The notes under the pieces are model-generated. The model had not been told where the DNA came from, did no database searches, and saw nothing but the letters and a program-made list of their open reading frames with translations. Both the position numbers and the translations under genes were made by a program. Positions 1 through 10,350 of a stretch of DNA of 64,000 bases are shown here, piece by piece. This DNA comes from Streptomyces sp. NRRL S-646 (GTDB lineage Bacteria > Actinomycetota > Actinomycetes > Streptomycetales > Streptomycetaceae). How positions within the stretch are numbered: position 1 is the first letter of the stretch; the number at the start of each line of letters is the position of its first letter. Where the stretch lies: positions 372,001-436,000 of the forward strand of contig NZ_JODC01000006.1 in the NCBI RefSeq assembly GCF_000720765.1, in the 5' to 3' direction.

Positions 1-419
1 ACGTCGTAGCCGGTCGTGGCGATCTCGACGACACCGGGCTTGATCTCGCGTGAGGTGACCTGGTGGACGCCGAAGGCGTGTCGCAGCCGGTCGACGGCCG
101 CGGAGTAGTCGAAGGCGTCCTGTCCCGGTTGCATCCGGATCCGCAGCCGCAGGCCCGTCCGGGTCGGCTTGATCCACATCAGGCGGGGCACCCGCTGTCG
201 TGGGATCTCCCACTTGAAGATCCGGGCCAGCCACAGCCGGAACCGGGAGGCAGGGACGGTGAGGTCACAGGCGTCCATGACGGACGCGTAGCGGAAGCGG
301 ACCTTGAGGGTGGCGTAGACGACACCGAAGGTCATCCAGTACCAGGCGGGGCGGCGCCACCGAAGCAGCAGCGCCAGCCCAACCACGACCACCACGGCGG
401 AGATCAGCAGCCACCGCAT
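1..419 (-). CDS. FtsK/SpoIIIE-type conjugative translocase, N-terminal part (cut by window edge)
   Basis: I translated this by eye as an open frame of 139 codons running off the left edge. It begins with one hydrophobic segment (about residues 3-20), then a basic, Trp-rich juxtamembrane stretch. It matches the N-terminal layout of the FtsK/SpoIIIE-like Tra proteins of AICEs and Streptomyces plasmids, which pump double-stranded DNA between hyphae. The ATPase motor would lie outside the window, so the family call rests on layout and context. The start is 2 bases after the stop of the upstream OB-like gene, so the two are probably co-transcribed. Confidence 0.75.
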   Translation of the reverse strand, partial: MRWLLISAVVVVVGLALLLRWRRPAWYWMTFGVVYATLKVRFRYASVMDACDLTVPASRFRLWLARIFKWEIPRQRVPRLMWIKPTRTGLRLRIRMQPGQDAFDYSAAVDRLRHAFGVHQVTSREIKPGVVEIATTGYD

Positions 420-421
420 GA

Positions 422-781
422 TCAGGCCGCCTTCAGGTTCTTCGAGCCGCCGGCGTCTACGGCGGTGACCGCGACCGCGCGGAAGCTGATGCCGTGCCGC
501 TTCTGGCCGTTGAACTCGTTCTCCCACGGCCGCGCCACCAGACCGGTCAAGGCGACCGGGGTGCCCATCGCCAGCTCACCGGAGATGGACGATTCGCCCA
601 CGGTGACCTTGACGACCTCGGCGTTGCCGTTCATCACGAACAGCACGTCCAGCGTCACCAGAAACTCACCGGTCTGCCGGTCTACGGCTCGCTCCTGGGT
701 CTGCTGGTTGACGTACTTCGGCTGCGGCGGCTGCGCCACCATCAGAGTCGCGCCGGCGGTGTCCACGGGGATCTGCTGCAT
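422..781 (-). CDS. small conserved AICE protein, OB-fold-like
   Basis: 119 residues. The ATG at 781 is chosen because AGGAGA sits 8 bases upstream; an upstream in-frame start at 937 would read through the operator region. The sequence is beta-rich, with a run of V/I/L strands and a GTPVALTG turn, which resembles a single-strand-binding OB fold; that is inference. Proteins of this kind commonly sit just before the FtsK-like gene in pSAM2-type elements. Function is unproven. A role in transfer or element replication fits the operon. Confidence 0.75.
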   Translation of the reverse strand: MQQIPVDTAGATLMVAQPPQPKYVNQQTQERAVDRQTGEFLVTLDVLFVMNGNAEVVKVTVGESSISGELAMGTPVALTGLVARPWENEFNGQKRHGISFRAVAVTAVDAGGSKNLKAA

Positions 782-1711: not shown

Positions 1712-2182
1712 ATGGCCCGAGTCGACTACTTCAACGATCCGAAAGCCCCGAAGGCGAACAGCATCGTGCCGTCAGTCACCGCTGTGGCGCTCAACGAGGC
1801 CGGGGAAATCCTCCTGATCCACAAGACAGACAACAACCTGTGGGCACTGCCCGGCGGCGGGGTCGACCTAGGCGAGTCGGCACCCGACGCCGCCGTACGG
1901 GAGACTAAGGAAGAGACCGGGATCGACGTCAAGGTGACTGGCCTAGTCGGCATCTACACCAACCCTGCACACGTCTTGGCGTACGACGACGGCGAGGTAC
2001 GCCAACAATTTTCGATCTGCTTCCGAGCACAGATCATCGGCGGCGTTCTACGGACAAGCAGCGAGAGCAAGGAGGTGGCGTTCGTGCACCCGAGCCGGCT
2101 GGACGAACTGAGCATCCACCCGTCCATGCGGATGCGGATTGATCACGGCTTGGCAAACCGGCCCGAGCCCTACGTCGGCTGA
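1712..2182 (+). CDS. Nudix hydrolase, Pif-like
   Basis: 156 residues; GGGGGG lies just before the ATG. A complete Nudix box spans residues 49-71 (G49, E55, R63-E64, E67-E68, G70), so the metal-binding glutamates are present. Nudix enzymes hydrolyse nucleoside diphosphates linked to another group. In pSAM2 the Nudix protein Pif acts in transfer immunity, and this gene sits in the equivalent position beside a regulator. It is 40 bases downstream of the XRE gene and likely shares its transcript. Its 3' end overlaps the convergent HD gene by 13 bases. Confidence 0.88.
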   Translation: MARVDYFNDPKAPKANSIVPSVTAVALNEAGEILLIHKTDNNLWALPGGGVDLGESAPDAAVRETKEETGIDVKVTGLVGIYTNPAHVLAYDDGEVRQQFSICFRAQIIGGVLRTSSESKEVAFVHPSRLDELSIHPSMRMRIDHGLANRPEPYVG

Positions 2183-2730
2183 CCAGTCAAGCGGGCTCGT
2201 GTCCGCTCGACGGCGGCTCCAAGGTATGGCCGTGCCTTGCTGATTGCGGTGTGCACTTCACTGCCCGACTCATACCGCTCCAAGATCTCATCAATGCGTC
2301 GGTCGAAGTCAAACGACTGCCCAGCGGGACCGGTCGTCATGTCGGCGTAGATCAGCCCGTCCAGGACCGGGGAATCCTCCCGCTCGTACACGGCCAGCTC
2401 GGCAGTCAGCCCGCGTTGTTCAGCCTCATACACGGCGCCGGAGTGGTGGGCGACCAACCGAACGAGCCGTGACGGCGCACCGAGCGTCTCCAGGTAACGC
2501 GCACCATCGAGCGGATGGAACCCGGTGTCTCGCAGCTCTGGGGCATAGCCGATGTCGTGCAGCCAGGCGGCGGCGACAAGTAGATCCCGGTCCTCTTCGG
2601 ACACAGTCGCCGAAGCCTCGCGCGCTCGTGCTGCCACAGCCTGTGTGTGCAGCCAGCGGTTCCCGAGCGGGGGCAACAACGACTCGGCCAGCTCGGCCGC
2701 ACCTTGGGGTGTGTCCAGTCCAGAGGGCAT
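2170..2730 (-). CDS. HD-domain metal-dependent phosphohydrolase
   Basis: 186 residues. The HD signature is readable: H28, then H58-D59 in WLHDIG, a histidine pair at H95-H96, and a later aspartate in the IYADM strand. HD proteins hydrolyse phosphoesters, often of nucleotides, using one or two metal ions. The substrate here is unknown. The gene converges on the Nudix gene. Together with the XRE-PLD protein they form a small nucleotide-metabolism and regulation block of the element. No signal peptide or membrane segment is seen. Confidence 0.83.
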   Translation of the reverse strand: MPSGLDTPQGAAELAESLLPPLGNRWLHTQAVAARAREASATVSEEDRDLLVAAAWLHDIGYAPELRDTGFHPLDGARYLETLGAPSRLVRLVAHHSGAVYEAEQRGLTAELAVYEREDSPVLDGLIYADMTTGPAGQSFDFDRRIDEILERYESGSEVHTAISKARPYLGAAVERTRARLTGQPT

Positions 2731-3384: not shown

Positions 3385-3532
3385 GCGACTTTAGCCAGCC
3401 ACTTTGGCGCGAGCCTCGAAGATCATGGCCCCAACGTCGTGCTCTAACGGGCAGGTCAACAGACTGCCCGACGCGCCGGAAGCTTACGGGGCCATGATCA
3501 CTCGCGCCAAAGCAGCTCCCGGCCAAAGTCGC
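3385..3532. repeat. 148-bp nested palindrome (possible single-strand origin)
   Basis: Four concentric stems are visible. GCGACTTTAGCC (3385-3396) pairs with 3521-3532 with one mismatch. CTTTGGCGCGAG (3402-3413) pairs perfectly with 3501-3512. GATCATGGCCCC (3421-3432) pairs perfectly with 3488-3499. GGGCAG (3449-3454) pairs with CTGCCC (3464-3469). Such a fold is typical of single-strand origins of rolling-circle replicons, or of a MITE-like insertion. No gene crosses it. Confidence 0.75.
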
Positions 3533-3688
3533 TACGCCGACCGCGTGAGTACCTGCGGAGCGCCCTCACTGATCGCCTGCCGTGGGAGAACAGACATCTT
3601 CGCCAATAGTTGTCTAACTTCCGATGCGACGCCATCCAGATGCCTCAGCCGCCGGTTGTGGCGAGGCGAGTGGTGGCAAACTGTAGAT

Positions 3689-4036
3689 GTGACCGACCCC
3701 AGCATCCTCCAGCAGCGCCACAGCGCGACACTGCGCGTCGTCTGGGCAGAGCCCGAGGGCGCGGCCCAACCGTGCAACCAGTTCGCCGTGACTGTGGGCT
3801 TGCCTACTCAGAGCGGTATGCCCGAAGCTGTCTACCTGACGTTGGGAAGCGTTGAGCCTCCTCTCCTGTTCGGCACAGAAGCGGACGTAAAGCAACAGCT
3901 GGAGAGCACGGGAGGCACGCTCACCGTGAGGCCCCTTGGTAGGTACGTCTTCACTCGGGGGCGTCTCGATGAGTTGATTGCGGTTCTCCAGTCAGCTGCC
4001 AACGCGTTCGACCAGGCCCAGGAAGGTGCAACATGA
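3689..4036 (+). CDS. unknown protein, first gene of mazF operon
   Basis: 115 residues from a GTG at 3689. The open frame extends further upstream, but that part overlaps the palindrome and has no protein-like composition. The product is small and mixed alpha/beta. A beta-rich core (VTVGLP to VYLTLGS) is followed by a strand-turn-helix ending in a Leu/Ala-rich helix. I recognise no family. Its stop overlaps the next ATG (ATGA), so the two are translationally coupled, and a MazF-type toxin follows. It could be a regulator, a chaperone or a third component of the toxin-antitoxin module. Confidence 0.6.
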   Translation: MTDPSILQQRHSATLRVVWAEPEGAAQPCNQFAVTVGLPTQSGMPEAVYLTLGSVEPPLLFGTEADVKQQLESTGGTLTVRPLGRYVFTRGRLDELIAVLQSAANAFDQAQEGAT

Positions 4037-4293
4037 CCGCTACCGCGTCATACAGCAACTTGCAGGGCACGGTTCAGGCCCCGGTGGGGACAGCATCAAT
4101 CACCTTGTCTGAGCGCTTTCCGTGGCTGGTCCCATCCATCCAGAGCTCTCCCCAACTAGAGGTGAGCGTGACTGACGCTTCGGTAGTGGAGGATGACGAT
4201 CTCGCTGCTGAGTTCGCCGCCTATGCTGACGTCTCCAGCGAGTGGGCTGCTACTACCTGGGAAGCAACCTCCGAGGCGTGGCCCGAGTACTAA
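4033..4293 (+). CDS. small acidic protein, candidate antitoxin of MazF
   Basis: 86 residues, coupled by ATGA to the preceding gene and ending 9 bases before the mazF-like gene. The C-terminal half is strongly acidic and Trp/Ala-rich (VVEDDDLAAEF, then two further acidic patches). That suits an antitoxin tail wrapping a basic toxin. No MazE-type AbrB or ribbon-helix-helix DNA-binding domain is apparent, so the assignment rests on position and charge. Confidence 0.6.
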   Translation: MTATASYSNLQGTVQAPVGTASITLSERFPWLVPSIQSSPQLEVSVTDASVVEDDDLAAEFAAYADVSSEWAATTWEATSEAWPEY

Positions 4294-4302
4294 ACTGGGC
4301 GT

Positions 4303-4665
4303 GTGTCAGGCACGAGTCAGTCCCAGTACCCTCGGCGCGGCGACATCTACTGGGTTGACTTCAACCCGGCGCGCGGATCCGAGCAAGCAGGTCGTCGACC
4401 GGCTGTAGTTATCTCACTTGACTCCTTCAATAGGGTCATGCCCGTCGTTGTCGTGGCTGCCGTGACCACCAGGATCCGCGAGGGTTCCAAGATCCAAGTG
4501 ACTCTTGAGGCTGGCGATCCTCTGCCCCAGCGCTCGGCAATCCTTGGATTTCAGGTGACAACCATCGATCAGGCTCGATTGGAACAGCCTGGTGGAAGGC
4601 TCCGCGCAGAGCAGATCGACGAGCTCGATGAGGTCATTTCGCGTTGCTTCGGCCTGAGGTCTTAG
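4303..4665 (+). CDS. MazF/PemK-family endoribonuclease toxin
   Basis: 120 residues from a GTG start. The MazF signature is clear: RRGDIYWVDFNPARGSEQ near the N-terminus, followed by RRPAVVIS, VAAVTT and the later QVTTIDQ strand. These toxins cleave mRNA at short sequences and are held in check by a partner encoded just upstream. The length is normal for the family. It is the last gene of a three-gene operon. A strong hairpin lies about 225 bases downstream. Confidence 0.9.
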   Translation: MSGTSQSQYPRRGDIYWVDFNPARGSEQAGRRPAVVISLDSFNRVMPVVVVAAVTTRIREGSKIQVTLEAGDPLPQRSAILGFQVTTIDQARLEQPGGRLRAEQIDELDEVISRCFGLRS

Positions 4666-4984: not shown

Positions 4985-6145
4985 TCACCCTGCGAAGCGC
5001 AAGATGATTTCCTCCCGCATACGCATATCCATCGATCCACTCCCGGAGCTCGGCGGGGGGAGATAGCGGCGATTAGCCGGAATTTCTCGACATAGCCGGT
5101 CCACTAAACCCAAGCCAACGTATCCACTAACCTCAGTAATGATCTTTTCTACGGAGACACTTGCACCTTTCAGCCGAGCATCGGCAATGACGAAAGTAGC
5201 TAGTCCTCCCGGACGAAGAACGCGGGAAATCTCGGAAACCAATCGCAGTATATCGGCAATATATCGATTGAGCAGTCGGATTTCGCGCTCAGCCAGAGCT
5301 CCACTAAGCGCCAATTGGCGCACTCGATCGACTTCTTCGCTGGCAGAGCTACCGCACTGACTCCCAATATTATCCGACCGTAGCCCACGAAGATATCCGA
5401 TGGTGTAACCCATCCAAACGAGGCTAAGCCGGTGCCCTCGCAAATAATCAATAGCCACCAAATAAGGAGGGCTCGTCATAACCGCATCGACCTGACGTTC
5501 CCCCAGAGGGATCTGCCTCCCATCCGCACGGAAGGGAATGAACTTACCAGGTCCATAAATAGAGCTAGCTGGCGACTGATGAGATCGCCGAATCACAGTC
5601 TTCACGGACTCTGGAAATCTTTCCAGAACATCAAAACTTGCTGCCTCGCGGACACGATGTGGCCGCGAATGAGACACGTCACGTGCTCGCGACGCACCCG
5701 CATCTTTGGTGATAATTAGACGCGAGAAAGCGCACCAAAGAGGGGCCTGAAGCGACGGAGGTGATTGCGAAATCCCTGAGGCAATAGCAGCCAATTTGTC
5801 TCGCGTCTCGGGATCGAACCAGAAGTCGATGAACCTGAGGGTCTCGGCATCGCTAGAGGCTAAGAACTCACCTCCGCCTTTGGCTGTGGCAACAATCGAG
5901 TCACAAGCCTCACGGAGGGAGCGCTCATCAAATTCACCCGCCGCCGTCTGAGAGATCAGAACAGCCAGCGGGTCACTATCACACCCCAAAGCCAGATGCC
6001 CACGTGCAGCCGCCGCGAGCGGGAAGCTCCCAGAGCCCATCATCGGATCGAGCACCACCGATGAGTTAGGGAGCTCGTCCAGGAAGCGTTCACTCAGCTC
6101 GGGAGCCATGCGTGCCGGAAATGGATGTACCGCAGCACGAGCCAT
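4985..6145 (-). CDS. site-specific DNA methyltransferase
   Basis: 386 residues. An AdoMet-binding motif I (DPMMGSGSF, residues 33-41) precedes the catalytic motif IV (TSPPY, 224-228) with a long insert between. That suggests an amino (N6-adenine or N4-cytosine) methylase with order I then IV. The N-terminal VHPFPARM and the C-terminal EEIILRF are common in such enzymes. It starts one base after the stop of the ATPase-nuclease gene, so they form one operon. It presumably protects self DNA. Codon 347 (5105-5107) is TTA, rare in Streptomyces and dependent on the bldA tRNA. GC content is visibly lower than in the chromosome. Confidence 0.88.
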   Translation of the reverse strand: MARAAVHPFPARMAPELSERFLDELPNSSVVLDPMMGSGSFPLAAAARGHLALGCDSDPLAVLISQTAAGEFDERSLREACDSIVATAKGGGEFLASSDAETLRFIDFWFDPETRDKLAAIASGISQSPPSLQAPLWCAFSRLIITKDAGASRARDVSHSRPHRVREAASFDVLERFPESVKTVIRRSHQSPASSIYGPGKFIPFRADGRQIPLGERQVDAVMTSPPYLVAIDYLRGHRLSLVWMGYTIGYLRGLRSDNIGSQCGSSASEEVDRVRQLALSGALAEREIRLLNRYIADILRLVSEISRVLRPGGLATFVIADARLKGASVSVEKIITEVSGYVGLGLVDRLCREIPANRRYLPPPSSGSGSMDMRMREEIILRFAG

Positions 6146-6146
6146 T

Positions 6147-8825
6147 CTAGAAGCCTTCCTGAATCACTTTACGCAATGAACTCGGAACGCTCATTCTGTA
6201 TGACTCCGACACTCGGGAGGGGTAGCTATCGAGCGATGACCCCCATTCCCGATACAAAGCATCAGGAGTCGAATTCAAAGCGACAAACGTTCCGTCATAG
6301 TAGATGCTGTTTGGAGCCAGTGCTGCAAGCCCTCGGATAACCGCCGCAAGCTCATCCTCGTGTGGCTCGTACTCAAAATTTGATCGTTCGAATAGGCCCG
6401 TGATGAGATCCTTGATCGTGATCGGGTTCCTCCTGAGAGCATATTGCACAAGAAGAGTGACGATCTCTTCGATCGGCGGCGCATGGGGCGGCTCGGCCTT
6501 CTCTAGCCGCTCAACAAACTGCCGGCTCTCTGCAGGGCTACGGCACTCGAAAAGTTCCTTCAGAGTGAGTGGAGAAACTCCTCTAATCGGAAATAGTTCA
6601 ACGAGGTGAGCCAGATCTTCAACGGTTATTGGAGTAATCCCGTCATTGCGGCATATCGCCTCTATGAGGCTCTCATCTATGCCATCACCTTGAAACCCAG
6701 GAGCGACCAGCAATGTATACTTCGGATCAATCTTCAGGCCATGCTTTTCTTTGGCCCTTTCGCGATGCACTCGCAGGATGGAGGTGCGCGCAGTTCCGGC
6801 CTGAATCCTGGGAGTCTTTTCTCGCTGGGTAGGGAAAAGCTCATCCTGAATCGCCACTGCGCTGCTGTCCAATATCTTGCGGGCCTCTCGGCCGCTTGAT
6901 TTTGCGTCGTACGTTAGGGCATAGCTCTCATTTTCGTCACCATTGCGACGCCCCAGCTGCGCAATCGCAATTCCGTCGACAGAGCCGTTACCGCCGATCC
7001 TCTGCACAGAGAAGCCCAAAAGGGTTAGCGCATCGGCAACAGCGTCCTCCAGCTCCTTCTCCTGATTGCTGGCGTCTAGGAGCTGCCTAGCCACGACAAA
7101 GGCTGACCGCGGGTGCCGCTTCACCAGATCGCGGAGGAAAGCGTCGCGCTTACCCATGACCCGCGCCACGACTTCCGAAGGGATATTTTCGTCAAGCATA
7201 TACGCTTGGGTCAGGAGTTCGGTCAGTGCGAGAAGCTTTAGCGGCTCCCGCAACCCCTTCTCGTTGATATAGTTGCTAATGAACGGATGCTCTTCGTTAA
7301 GGACAGCAGCCTTACGCTCGGGGTCATAGCGAACCAGTTGTGCATCCTGCCCGTAAGGTTCGATGAGAACCTGTTCGAGGACATCTTCCTCACTGGCCAA
7401 AACGTCGCTGGTTTGAGCAACTGCCCGGCGGCTCAATCCCATCGATTCACGGGCTGCCTCATCGCCGGCAACAACTTTATCCAGCGCACGCCGAAGCGGC
7501 GCCTGCGTCAGGACCGGTGCAGGATCCGAAATGCGCCCTTGCTTTGTAAGATAGGGCATTTGGTCTTGAGAATCAGCCTGCAGTAGAACCTTTCGAGCCT
7601 TGTTGAAGACTGCGAGCATGTACTTGCGCAACTCTCGCAGCTCTGGAGAATCTTGAAGGCTTTCCCTCGGGCTAGCGACAAGCCTGTCCAGGTCATCTGC
7701 ATTAATCTCCATATGGAAGCGGGTGAGTGTTCCATGATGAAGCTCAGGCCCTACATTAAAGCTTGATTCATCAAGATTGATAAGACGCCCTCGAACGCGT
7801 ACAAAGAACCCATGACTACGCGCCAAAAAAGTGCTCTTACCCTTCTGCAAGGATTCCACGAATAGACGAGCAGATCCCCACACGTTTCCTGCAAGGGGAA
7901 GACGGAATGCTGGAATCGCACCGCTAGGAGTCTCAATAGAGCATGCAGTGCCCTCTACTTTGCTCTTGCCGTCGCGCAGTTCATCTTCCGATTTTCCGAC
8001 GGTGAATGTCCAGTGGGTTTTCCCGGCAGCTTTGGATGGATCAATTGGCCCATCATTGAGCCACAACTGAAACCCCGGATTCAGTGGCAATGCGGTCGAG
8101 AGGATCCAGCGCAGCCTCCCAAGTTGTATGTGACGGGCTCGCTCTTTGAGGCTCGTCATGATGGCTGCTGTCCAACTCCGCGGAGCCCCCTCGTTAGTGA
8201 AGAGCTTGTTCAGCACTAACGAGTTAGACCCCATGTACATATTACTCAAGGCCGATCGGAGAGACTGCTCTGCCTCTTCTCGGGTCAGCTCAGCAACAAG
8301 GAGTTGCAAAGATTGCGGATCATCCATCTCTCCTTGCACCTGCCGATAATCCATCGTAACGGCAAGATACTGACCGCTTCGGCAGACAATGTATGTCAGC
8401 TCTTCGGCGAGTACATAAGTGGCGAGCTTTCCGATTCCAAATTTTCCAATCGGCGCCCTACCTCGCACATGCCCCTGTTGACGTTTACGGGACTGACCAA
8501 CCTCCCAAAGTTGTTGCAGACCATCAAGATCCATGGACTCACCGTCATCCACAACAATTAATGTAGAATCCTCCGGCTCCAGATCTGACGGCATGTAAAC
8601 CCAAACCTGGCTAGCGCCGGCATCGTACGAATTAGAGACGAGCTCCTCAAAGGCCTTGTTGGGCGAGCTATACAAGCCTTCAGAAAAGCGTTGAATGATG
8701 CCCAGAGATATGCGCACAGCCACCGAACCGCTACGCTGGTTAGATGATTCCACAAAATCGGCAACATCGATTTTGATTTGCTCGTTGTGTGCAGCAGTCT
8801 CGTTCGATGCAGCCTTCTGATCCAT
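6147..8825 (-). CDS. GHKL (Hsp90/MutL/MORC-like) ATPase with restriction-endonuclease-like domain
   Basis: 892 residues. The Bergerat ATP-binding fold is complete: N box at 60-69 with N65, G1 box D93-D94-G95, and G2 box GKFGIGK at 127-133. Around 590-645 there is a PD-(D/E)XK-like module: an acidic helix (E591/E593), D617 in SVDG, then D640-A-K642. ATPases of this type next to methylases are known from comparative genomics as restriction-modification-like systems related to MutL and eukaryotic MORC. It is the promoter-proximal gene of a two-gene operon with the methyltransferase. TTA codons occur at 89 (8559-8561) and 203 (8217-8219). The nuclease call is inference from motif spacing. Confidence 0.82.
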   Translation of the reverse strand: MDQKAASNETAAHNEQIKIDVADFVESSNQRSGSVAVRISLGIIQRFSEGLYSSPNKAFEELVSNSYDAGASQVWVYMPSDLEPEDSTLIVVDDGESMDLDGLQQLWEVGQSRKRQQGHVRGRAPIGKFGIGKLATYVLAEELTYIVCRSGQYLAVTMDYRQVQGEMDDPQSLQLLVAELTREEAEQSLRSALSNMYMGSNSLVLNKLFTNEGAPRSWTAAIMTSLKERARHIQLGRLRWILSTALPLNPGFQLWLNDGPIDPSKAAGKTHWTFTVGKSEDELRDGKSKVEGTACSIETPSGAIPAFRLPLAGNVWGSARLFVESLQKGKSTFLARSHGFFVRVRGRLINLDESSFNVGPELHHGTLTRFHMEINADDLDRLVASPRESLQDSPELRELRKYMLAVFNKARKVLLQADSQDQMPYLTKQGRISDPAPVLTQAPLRRALDKVVAGDEAARESMGLSRRAVAQTSDVLASEEDVLEQVLIEPYGQDAQLVRYDPERKAAVLNEEHPFISNYINEKGLREPLKLLALTELLTQAYMLDENIPSEVVARVMGKRDAFLRDLVKRHPRSAFVVARQLLDASNQEKELEDAVADALTLLGFSVQRIGGNGSVDGIAIAQLGRRNGDENESYALTYDAKSSGREARKILDSSAVAIQDELFPTQREKTPRIQAGTARTSILRVHRERAKEKHGLKIDPKYTLLVAPGFQGDGIDESLIEAICRNDGITPITVEDLAHLVELFPIRGVSPLTLKELFECRSPAESRQFVERLEKAEPPHAPPIEEIVTLLVQYALRRNPITIKDLITGLFERSNFEYEPHEDELAAVIRGLAALAPNSIYYDGTFVALNSTPDALYREWGSSLDSYPSRVSESYRMSVPSSLRKVIQEGF

Positions 8826-9426: not shown

Positions 9427-10134
9427 TTGTCAGTCTTAACGATCATAGGGCCCATCGTCGGTGCCGTAGTCGTGGCGGTCATCACCTACCTCACCTCACG
9501 ACCTCGGTTGCGGGCGGAAGTTCGGAAGCTGGAAGCAGAGTCAGATCGCACGATGGCCGAGACAACCAAGATCCTTTCGGAGTTCCAAGCGCGTCCCTCG
9601 AACGTCGCCGGCAATAACGCTCTGCCAAGGGGCTGGTACGTGACGGGGGCGCGACCCGAGGACTATGAATTTGGCGTTGACACGCAGGTATTCCACAGCG
9701 GTCACGCCAGCGCCTTCATCCAATCCCGTCCCGGTGCTAAGGAGTTTGCCTCCATCGCCCAGGTGTTCAAGGCAGATGCCTACCGAGGCAAGCGGGTACG
9801 TCTATCCGCCATGCTCAAGACCAGAGACGTCGCCAACTGGGCGGGGCTCTGGCTTCGCATCGATGACGTCCTGCACAACGTGATGGAGTTCGACAACACC
9901 GCTGACCGTCGAAGCATTTCGGGTACCCAGAGTTGGAGTCGCCGGAATGTTGTCCTTGACGTACCCGGCGACGGCGCGACTATCCGGATCGGCTTCCTGC
10001 TCAATGGTGACGGACGCGTCTGGTGTGACGACATGAAATTTGAAGAGGTAGGACTCGACATACCCGTTACCCGTAATATCGAAGGCGTGCGGAATCATCC
10101 AGAGAACCTCGACTTCGAGGCTGGAACCAACTGA
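9427..10134 (+). CDS. membrane-anchored protein with lectin-like beta-sandwich domain
   Basis: 235 residues from a TTG with AGGG upstream. An N-terminal hydrophobic segment (about residues 4-23) is followed by a short Glu/Arg-rich helix. A beta-rich domain follows, running from GWYVTG to VWCDDMKFEEV. This resembles carbohydrate-binding-like modules found at the end of some regulators and esterases; that is a judgement of pattern only. Codon 4 (9436-9438) is TTA. It is the last gene before the attachment site. Its function is unknown, and an effector or immunity role is possible. Confidence 0.7.
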   Translation: MSVLTIIGPIVGAVVVAVITYLTSRPRLRAEVRKLEAESDRTMAETTKILSEFQARPSNVAGNNALPRGWYVTGARPEDYEFGVDTQVFHSGHASAFIQSRPGAKEFASIAQVFKADAYRGKRVRLSAMLKTRDVANWAGLWLRIDDVLHNVMEFDNTADRRSISGTQSWSRRNVVLDVPGDGATIRIGFLLNGDGRVWCDDMKFEEVGLDIPVTRNIEGVRNHPENLDFEAGTN

Positions 10135-10253: not shown

Positions 10254-10310
10254 AAGAGCAGGCGCCTTCTAAGCGCTTGGCCGCAGGTTCGAGTCCTGCC
10301 GGGGGCGCCC
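10254..10310 (+). other. 3' fragment of tRNA-Arg(UCU): right attachment site of the AICE
   Basis: The anticodon stem GGCGC/GCGCT (10261-10265/10273-10277) encloses loop CTTCTAA with anticodon TCT at 10268-10270. The T arm is GCAGG-TTCGAGT-CCTGC (10283-10299), and the acceptor 3' strand CGGGGGC is at 10300-10306. No matching 5' acceptor (GCCCCCG) or D arm exists upstream, so this is only the 3' part of a tRNA gene. That is the usual duplicated core left by AICE integrases. The left limit of the duplication is approximate. Confidence 0.8.
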
Positions 10311-10316
10311 AGTCTC

Positions 10317-10341
10317 CGCCCTCCTTCGGGAGGGCGTTTTT
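10317..10341 (+). terminator. Rho-independent terminator of the tRNA-Arg locus
   Basis: CGCCCTCC (10317-10324) and GGAGGGCG (10329-10336) form a perfect 8-bp stem with a TTCG tetraloop, followed by TTTTT. It lies 7 bases after the tRNA 3' fragment, as expected for the original tRNA gene, so it marks where native chromosome resumes. Confidence 0.85.
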
Positions 10342-10350
10342 GCTGGTCAG
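10330..10350 (+). repeat. 21-bp direct repeat, copy 1 (flanks VOC gene)
   Basis: The 3' half of the terminator plus flank matches the copy at 10840-10860 at 20 of 21 positions. The two copies are exactly 510 bases apart and bracket the VOC gene. Confidence 0.75.

Follow-up and report, generated by a model that had tools for sequence, protein, structure and literature searches.

What is the function of a bacterial gene pair in which a GHKL ATPase and a nuclease signature are joined on one polypeptide, and in which the next gene, one nucleotide further on, encodes a methyltransferase? Such a pair occupies positions 4985 to 8825 of a 64,000-nucleotide stretch of Streptomyces sp. NRRL S-646 (assembly GCF_000720765.1, contig NZ_JODC01000006.1, positions 372,001 to 436,000), hereafter the window, to which coordinates refer. 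The pair is real, intact and conserved, and forms cargo of an actinomycete integrative and conjugative element (AICE); it is likely to be a compact restriction-modification system, type II-like and ATP-dependent, of the MORC/paraMORC kind.

The two-gene locus

The features of the locus, all on the minus strand, are the following.

6147..8825, minus: 892-amino-acid (aa) GHKL ATPase with a C-terminal PD-(D/E)XK nuclease signature (open reading frame (ORF), PF13589, conserved residues, model)
7566..8717, minus: GHKL ATPase and S5-like transducer, residues 37-420
6546..7073, minus: nuclease-like domain, residues 585-760, with E593, D617, D640 and K642 (conservation and profile matches)
6150..6545, minus: C-terminal residues 761-892, helices plus one short pair of strands (predicted elements)
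6160-6154, minus: AGGAAGG, possible ribosome-binding site of the methyltransferase, within the end of the ATPase gene (sequence)
4985..6145, minus: amino-methyltransferase, 386 aa, motifs DPMMGSG and TSPPY (ORF, PF01555, PADLOC PDLC03322, model)

The stop codon of the ATPase gene (TAG, 6149-6147) is separated by a 1-nt gap from the ATG of the methyltransferase at 6145, so that the close succession of the two genes, described in an original prediction made from the DNA letters, holds for both ORFs; the AGGAAGG at 6160-6154 is Shine-Dalgarno-like and a plausible candidate for the ribosome site of the second gene. The G+C content, calculated in 2-kb windows, is 0.54-0.58 across 4-10 kb, as against 0.62-0.76 in the rest of the window, and because of this lower value the region would fit acquired DNA.

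The ATPase module

The N-terminal part of the 892-aa protein matches HATPase_c_3 (PF13589) with 57 bits (cut-off 25), and the Bergerat residues E61, N65, D68, D93, G95, G127, G132 and K133 are identical in 100 of 100 aligned sequences, which bears out the complete Bergerat ATPase of the original prediction in all eight motif residues. The domain is followed by an S5-like transducer, and in predicted-structure comparison the GHKL module resembles MORC and Hsp90. The model of the whole protein has a mean predicted local distance difference test (pLDDT) score of 87.1 and a predicted template-modelling (pTM) score of 0.57; searches with this model by Foldseek and VIA-align returned mainly matches of the ATPase part and are uninformative on nuclease structures. 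Besides the N-terminus, residues 761-892 are the least conserved part of the protein (mean identity about 25%). Two further ORFs of the same genome weakly match the ATPase domain, at G000:C9:171588-171968 (E 3.7e-4) and G000:C14:145324-145686 (E 8.8e-5), in open frames of 1045 aa and 665 aa, respectively.

The nuclease domain

The residues of the putative catalytic site are conserved throughout the 100 aligned sequences, which reach down to 28% identity to the window protein: position 617 is D in 89 and E in 11, position 640 is D in 66 and E in 34, K642 is present in all, and E593, a position that the original prediction had left unnamed, is E in 98 and Q in 2. The full set E593/D617/D640/K642, counting D and E alike at positions 617 and 640, is found in 98 of the 100, both exceptions carrying Q593. 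In the whole-protein model the predicted elements are a helix (589-602), strands (606-609, 618-622, 635-641), helices and two further strands (701-708, 730-734); a PD-(D/E)XK domain would fit residues 585-760 because this order of elements is the usual one for the fold. The PD-(D/E)XK-like site proposed earlier (D617, D640-x-K642) thus stands, its positions being conserved and the predicted elements fitting; as to the region 580-660 that had been singled out, the model gave no sign that a nuclease fold is absent there, while the domain extends beyond it, to about residue 760.

When 58 nuclease-domain sequences were scanned singly, Mrr_cat matched 29 (best 8.9e-7), FokI_cleav_dom 14 (best 3.4e-4) and RE_HindIII 2 (best 0.0021); among whole proteins, Mrr_cat was found in 3 of 44. 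Compared with solved chains, the profile of the domain placed HindIII first (2e52, E=0.0029), aligned over Y-x4-DAKS, and the remaining matches were viral nucleoproteins, at E 0.14 or worse and aligned away from that motif. We conclude that the domain is a predicted PD-(D/E)XK nuclease; the fold is named without a subfamily because Mrr_cat is the commoner match in the scans and HindIII comes first in the solved-structure search. For the same reasons FokI, which a first reading by eye had taken as the single closest nuclease, was dropped; a precomputed FokI label (PF09254 on P0075) was not reproduced by a whole-protein scan at E up to 10.

The methyltransferase

The partner carries DPMMGSG as motif I and TSPPY as motif IV, of which S224-P225-P226-Y227 is invariant across 74 sequences, the least conserved parts being residues 176-199 and 246-300. 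It passes the PF01555 cut-off narrowly (28 against 26.7 bits), and the PADLOC type II methyltransferase model PDLC03322 matches it over residues 6-382 (E=4.1e-22); the pLDDT of its model is 91.1. SPPY accompanies N4-cytosine methyltransferases, and the protein is probably a DNA N4-cytosine enzyme.

Conservation and distribution of the pair

Two ATPase peptide patterns, run against genome contigs, found 134 relatives; the best 80 of these, the window's own copy and one locus from related genomes make up the 82 loci considered here, which include near-copies (L004/L008/L009/L010; L024/L033; L067/L070). In 74 of the 82, the ATPase gene has a methyltransferase of the family described above no more than 600 bp away (downstream on the same strand in 48, upstream on the same strand in 19, on the opposite strand in 7); in the other 8 it lies further off in 4, the contig end cuts the locus in 2, and 2 are without it. 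The profile used was built from alignment A3, 47 of whose 74 rows come from the same loci; phmmer with the single window methyltransferase as query gave 81 ORFs, some loci being counted repeatedly. Within the genus, the methyltransferase is found at E up to 1e-30 in 4 of 295 genomes, its own included, and the ATPase adjoins it in all four occurrences; the ATPase occurs in 2 of 150 related genomes, again including its own. Distances between ATPases and between methyltransferases correlate (r 0.53, 59 pairs, 0 of 2000 permutations as high), as would be expected for partners and equally for any linked genes. The pair is the unit, and the partnership of ATPase and methyltransferase is conserved.

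The nearest homologs belong to Streptomyces (70-87% identical), and a tree of the window protein and 72 loci (rows of at least 740 aa, some near-copies omitted) comprises 23 named phyla, with 67 bacterial and 5 archaeal rows; the methyltransferase is adjacent in 4 of the archaeal loci, the fifth being cut by a contig end. Phylum labels require 44 changes on this tree, against a minimum of 22 and a shuffled mean of 53, a figure that fits frequent transfer and is no proof of it. Relatives occur on long chromosomal contigs across many phyla, frequently near other restriction genes; viral contigs gave no match to six peptide patterns, and the 19 plasmid and 2 phage records matched cover at most 32% and 31% of the query, respectively, in the N-terminal ATPase part only. 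At two loci (L034, L082) the ATPase gene is followed, after about 30-2300 bp, by genes for a second, double-GHKL protein and for a protein without Pfam match, and these resemble a histidine-kinase-like and a response-regulator-like gene that have been connected with restriction-modification (PMC8011034).

Relation to known systems

The MORC and paraMORC1-5 restriction systems were predicted in 2008 by Iyer et al. (PMC2292703), and most of the systems in that work include a separate helicase, which is usually absent beside the pair described here. Of the MutL/MORC-like restriction system that the original prediction had recognized, the MORC/paraMORC part is apt (PMC2292703), whereas MutL does not hold at the level of the family, the curated MutL model giving 16.9 bits where 180 are required. 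MORC proper was also considered and set aside: its S5 motif GhXhhpXXRhl (PMC2292703) is not matched by G339-FFVRVRG-R347-LI, which by eye keeps the spacing but has R343 at a hydrophobic and V344 at a polar position.

HgiDII is a purified enzyme. The HgiDII/BbrUII family (NF050001), one phage member of which is annotated ParaMORC3, aligns by profile with the GHKL and S5 part (probability 99.3, residues 33-422), and the C-terminal nuclease motif is common to both families; the nuclease of paraMORC3 is described as RecB-like with E-D-ExK (PMC2292703), and in the window family E-D-[DE]xK is present, the comparison being made only through the HgiDII/BbrUII set A5, by way of that phage protein. HgiDII/BbrUII or paraMORC3 was not adopted as family name; the NF050001 score is 61.1 bits, over residues 37-172 only, where 550 are needed. 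The nuclease domains do not align, since hhalign (A4, 58 domains, versus A5, 6 sequences of which 3 lie above the NF050001 cut-off) gave a probability of 3.3 with the match outside that family's nuclease part. A DNA methyltransferase adjoins HgiDII/BbrUII-type genes in 5 of the 6 loci examined (4 by eye, 1 by annotation), with none among the listed ORFs of at least 300 aa next to the sixth, L090; these partners, which we take to be of the C5 type from a motif recognized by eye, differ from the amino-methyltransferase of the window.

VcSduA of Vibrio cholerae, a defence protein, similarly combines in one protein a GHKL ATPase and a PD-(D/E)XK-type nuclease, in its case a Shedu domain; its authors think that the ATPase controls the nuclease, and the part of their paper available mentions no methyltransferase partner (PMC12137116). 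Shedu was considered as a family name and not adopted; in the Pfam scans of A1 and A4 its nuclease domain does not figure among the families listed (25 of 26 for A4). The CglI and NgoAVII restriction-modification systems (PMC4267653) also count among the closest known, and in a further set of defence candidates a MORC-type ATPase, a nuclease and a methyltransferase likewise occur in association. In titles and abstract openings of the open-licence literature, REBASE and subscription papers lying outside this scope, no description of the two-gene architecture was found among the matches listed. The best reading of these comparisons is that the outline of the system has been predicted since 2008, and that its nuclease and methyltransferase appear to differ from those of HgiDII/BbrUII-type pairs.

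The carrier element

A 91-bp exact repeat at -6391..-6301 and 10255..10345 delimits 16.7 kb, with the following features in addition to the pair.

-6391..-6301, outside the window: attL, 3' part of tRNA-Arg(TCT) and following bases
1..527, minus: FtsK/SpoIIIE-type (TraB-like) translocase, C-terminal coding part (FtsK_SpoIIIE 118.8 bits on L086:61-1527)
1712..2182, plus: NUDIX protein (PF00293, 66.4 bits)
2170..2730, minus: HD-domain protein (PF01966, 37.5 bits)
4303-4665, plus: MazF/PemK-type gene (PF02452, 95.5 bits)
9427-10134, plus: 235-aa ORF without Pfam match, inside the element between the ATPase gene and attR
10255..10345, no strand: attR, 91-bp copy of the 3' part of tRNA-Arg(TCT) and following bases (exact repeat)

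Outside the window, on its upstream side, are genes for a RepSA initiator (498 bits), for an integrase, whose Pfam score of 19.4 bits is below the cut-off of 27.1, and for the FtsK-type translocase, which extends into the window; with integrase, RepSA-type initiator, FtsK/TraB-type translocase and tRNA repeats present, the carrier looks like an AICE, and the conjugative element that had been predicted to carry the pair is thus upheld by gene content and repeats. In five relatives compared, similarity on the left flank extends as far as the tRNA region. In four of them other DNA comes next, and the backbone returns at window position 12.4 kb in L109 and near 18 kb in L106-L108. The fifth, L110 (G009:C1:3438530-3458400), holds a related element: it sits at the same tRNA-Arg, its RepSA and translocase regions are similar, its repeat copies lie about 10.3 kb apart, and neither the ATPase nor the methyltransferase gene was found in it. 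Because the tRNA is followed either by other DNA or by this element, the pair is variable cargo of the AICE. No relative among the matches listed spans the joined flanks through the junction as an uninterrupted empty site, and the right end of the element therefore rests on the exact 91-bp repeat. Ahead of the MazF/PemK-type gene are two ORFs, 3404-4036 and 4033-4293 (plus strand, 4-nt overlap), which have no Pfam match and are possibly its antitoxin and partner in the same element.

Proposed mechanism and alternative explanations

As in type II systems, the methyltransferase gene adjoins the nuclease gene, by a 1-nt gap here and closely in most of the loci. In the restriction-modification reading, the methyltransferase would mark the DNA of host and element, the mark most likely being N4-methylcytosine at a single site; its partner of 892 aa would dimerise via its MORC/Hsp90-like ATPase and close as a DNA clamp, and this closure would license its own PD-(D/E)XK domains to cut incoming unmarked DNA. 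The methylation chemistry and its target, the dimer clamping, the ATP-gated cleavage, the discrimination of methylation and an effect against phages or plasmids are all steps that we infer. Several observations weigh against the reading as a whole: no target-recognition domain was identified in the pair, nor any hypervariable region beyond the ATPase N-terminus among three homologs of 70-87% identity; the window's own nuclease domain matches Mrr_cat alone, at E=0.028, which does not pass the cut-off, and unrelated families match 1-3 of the 58 members at similar E-values, down to 4.1e-4; and the profile scan found two of the 82 loci, L055 and L076, to be without methyltransferase despite some 6 kb of flanking sequence on either side. 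Moreover, the nearest solved structures of the methyltransferase are general S-adenosylmethionine enzymes and tRNA methyltransferases, because of which its DNA substrate is only inferred. Co-variation of the variable regions of both proteins (partial correlations of at most 0.12) permits no inference on specificity.

The main rival, which we consider unlikely, is a defence nuclease of the sensor-effector kind, not site-specific, in which the clamp would sense a structure or protein of the invader and free the nuclease, methylation being a safeguard or a regulatory mark; the lack of a recognizable target-recognition domain and the control of the nuclease by the ATPase, as envisaged by the authors of VcSduA in the available part of their paper (PMC12137116), speak for it, whereas retention of the methyltransferase family beside the ATPase in 74 of the 82 loci goes beyond what an optional safeguard would need. 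A selfish role, in which the pair would stabilise the mobile element by killing cells that lose it, in the manner of addiction-type restriction-modification and with defence arising only incidentally, is compatible with the restriction-modification reading; it agrees with the position of the pair as AICE cargo and with its absence from the related element at the same tRNA, but is improbable, given that the chromosomal contigs on which relatives occur are long, come from many phyla and frequently hold other restriction genes nearby. Least probable of all, indeed very doubtful, is a MutL-type factor of DNA repair or maintenance that would form no barrier to foreign DNA: MutL is likewise laid out as GHKL, S5 and nuclease, and for some relatives Iyer et al. 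consider a part in repair possible (PMC2292703), yet the rarity and patchiness of both genes in the genomes counted above, the mobile carrier and the low score with the MutL model are at odds with it.

Significance

In 2008 GHKL ATPases were put forward as restriction engines and as ancestors of the eukaryotic MORC proteins, and in multi-gene systems the ATP step is hard to test. Here, a single polypeptide combines ATPase and predicted nuclease and has a single methyltransferase as its partner, and relatives range from Actinomycetota to archaea, so that two genes would suffice to test the gating of DNA cleavage by a MORC/Hsp90-type clamp and the reading of the methyl mark; for the actinomycetes themselves, an AICE-borne restriction candidate is added in bacteria where barriers to DNA transfer matter practically.
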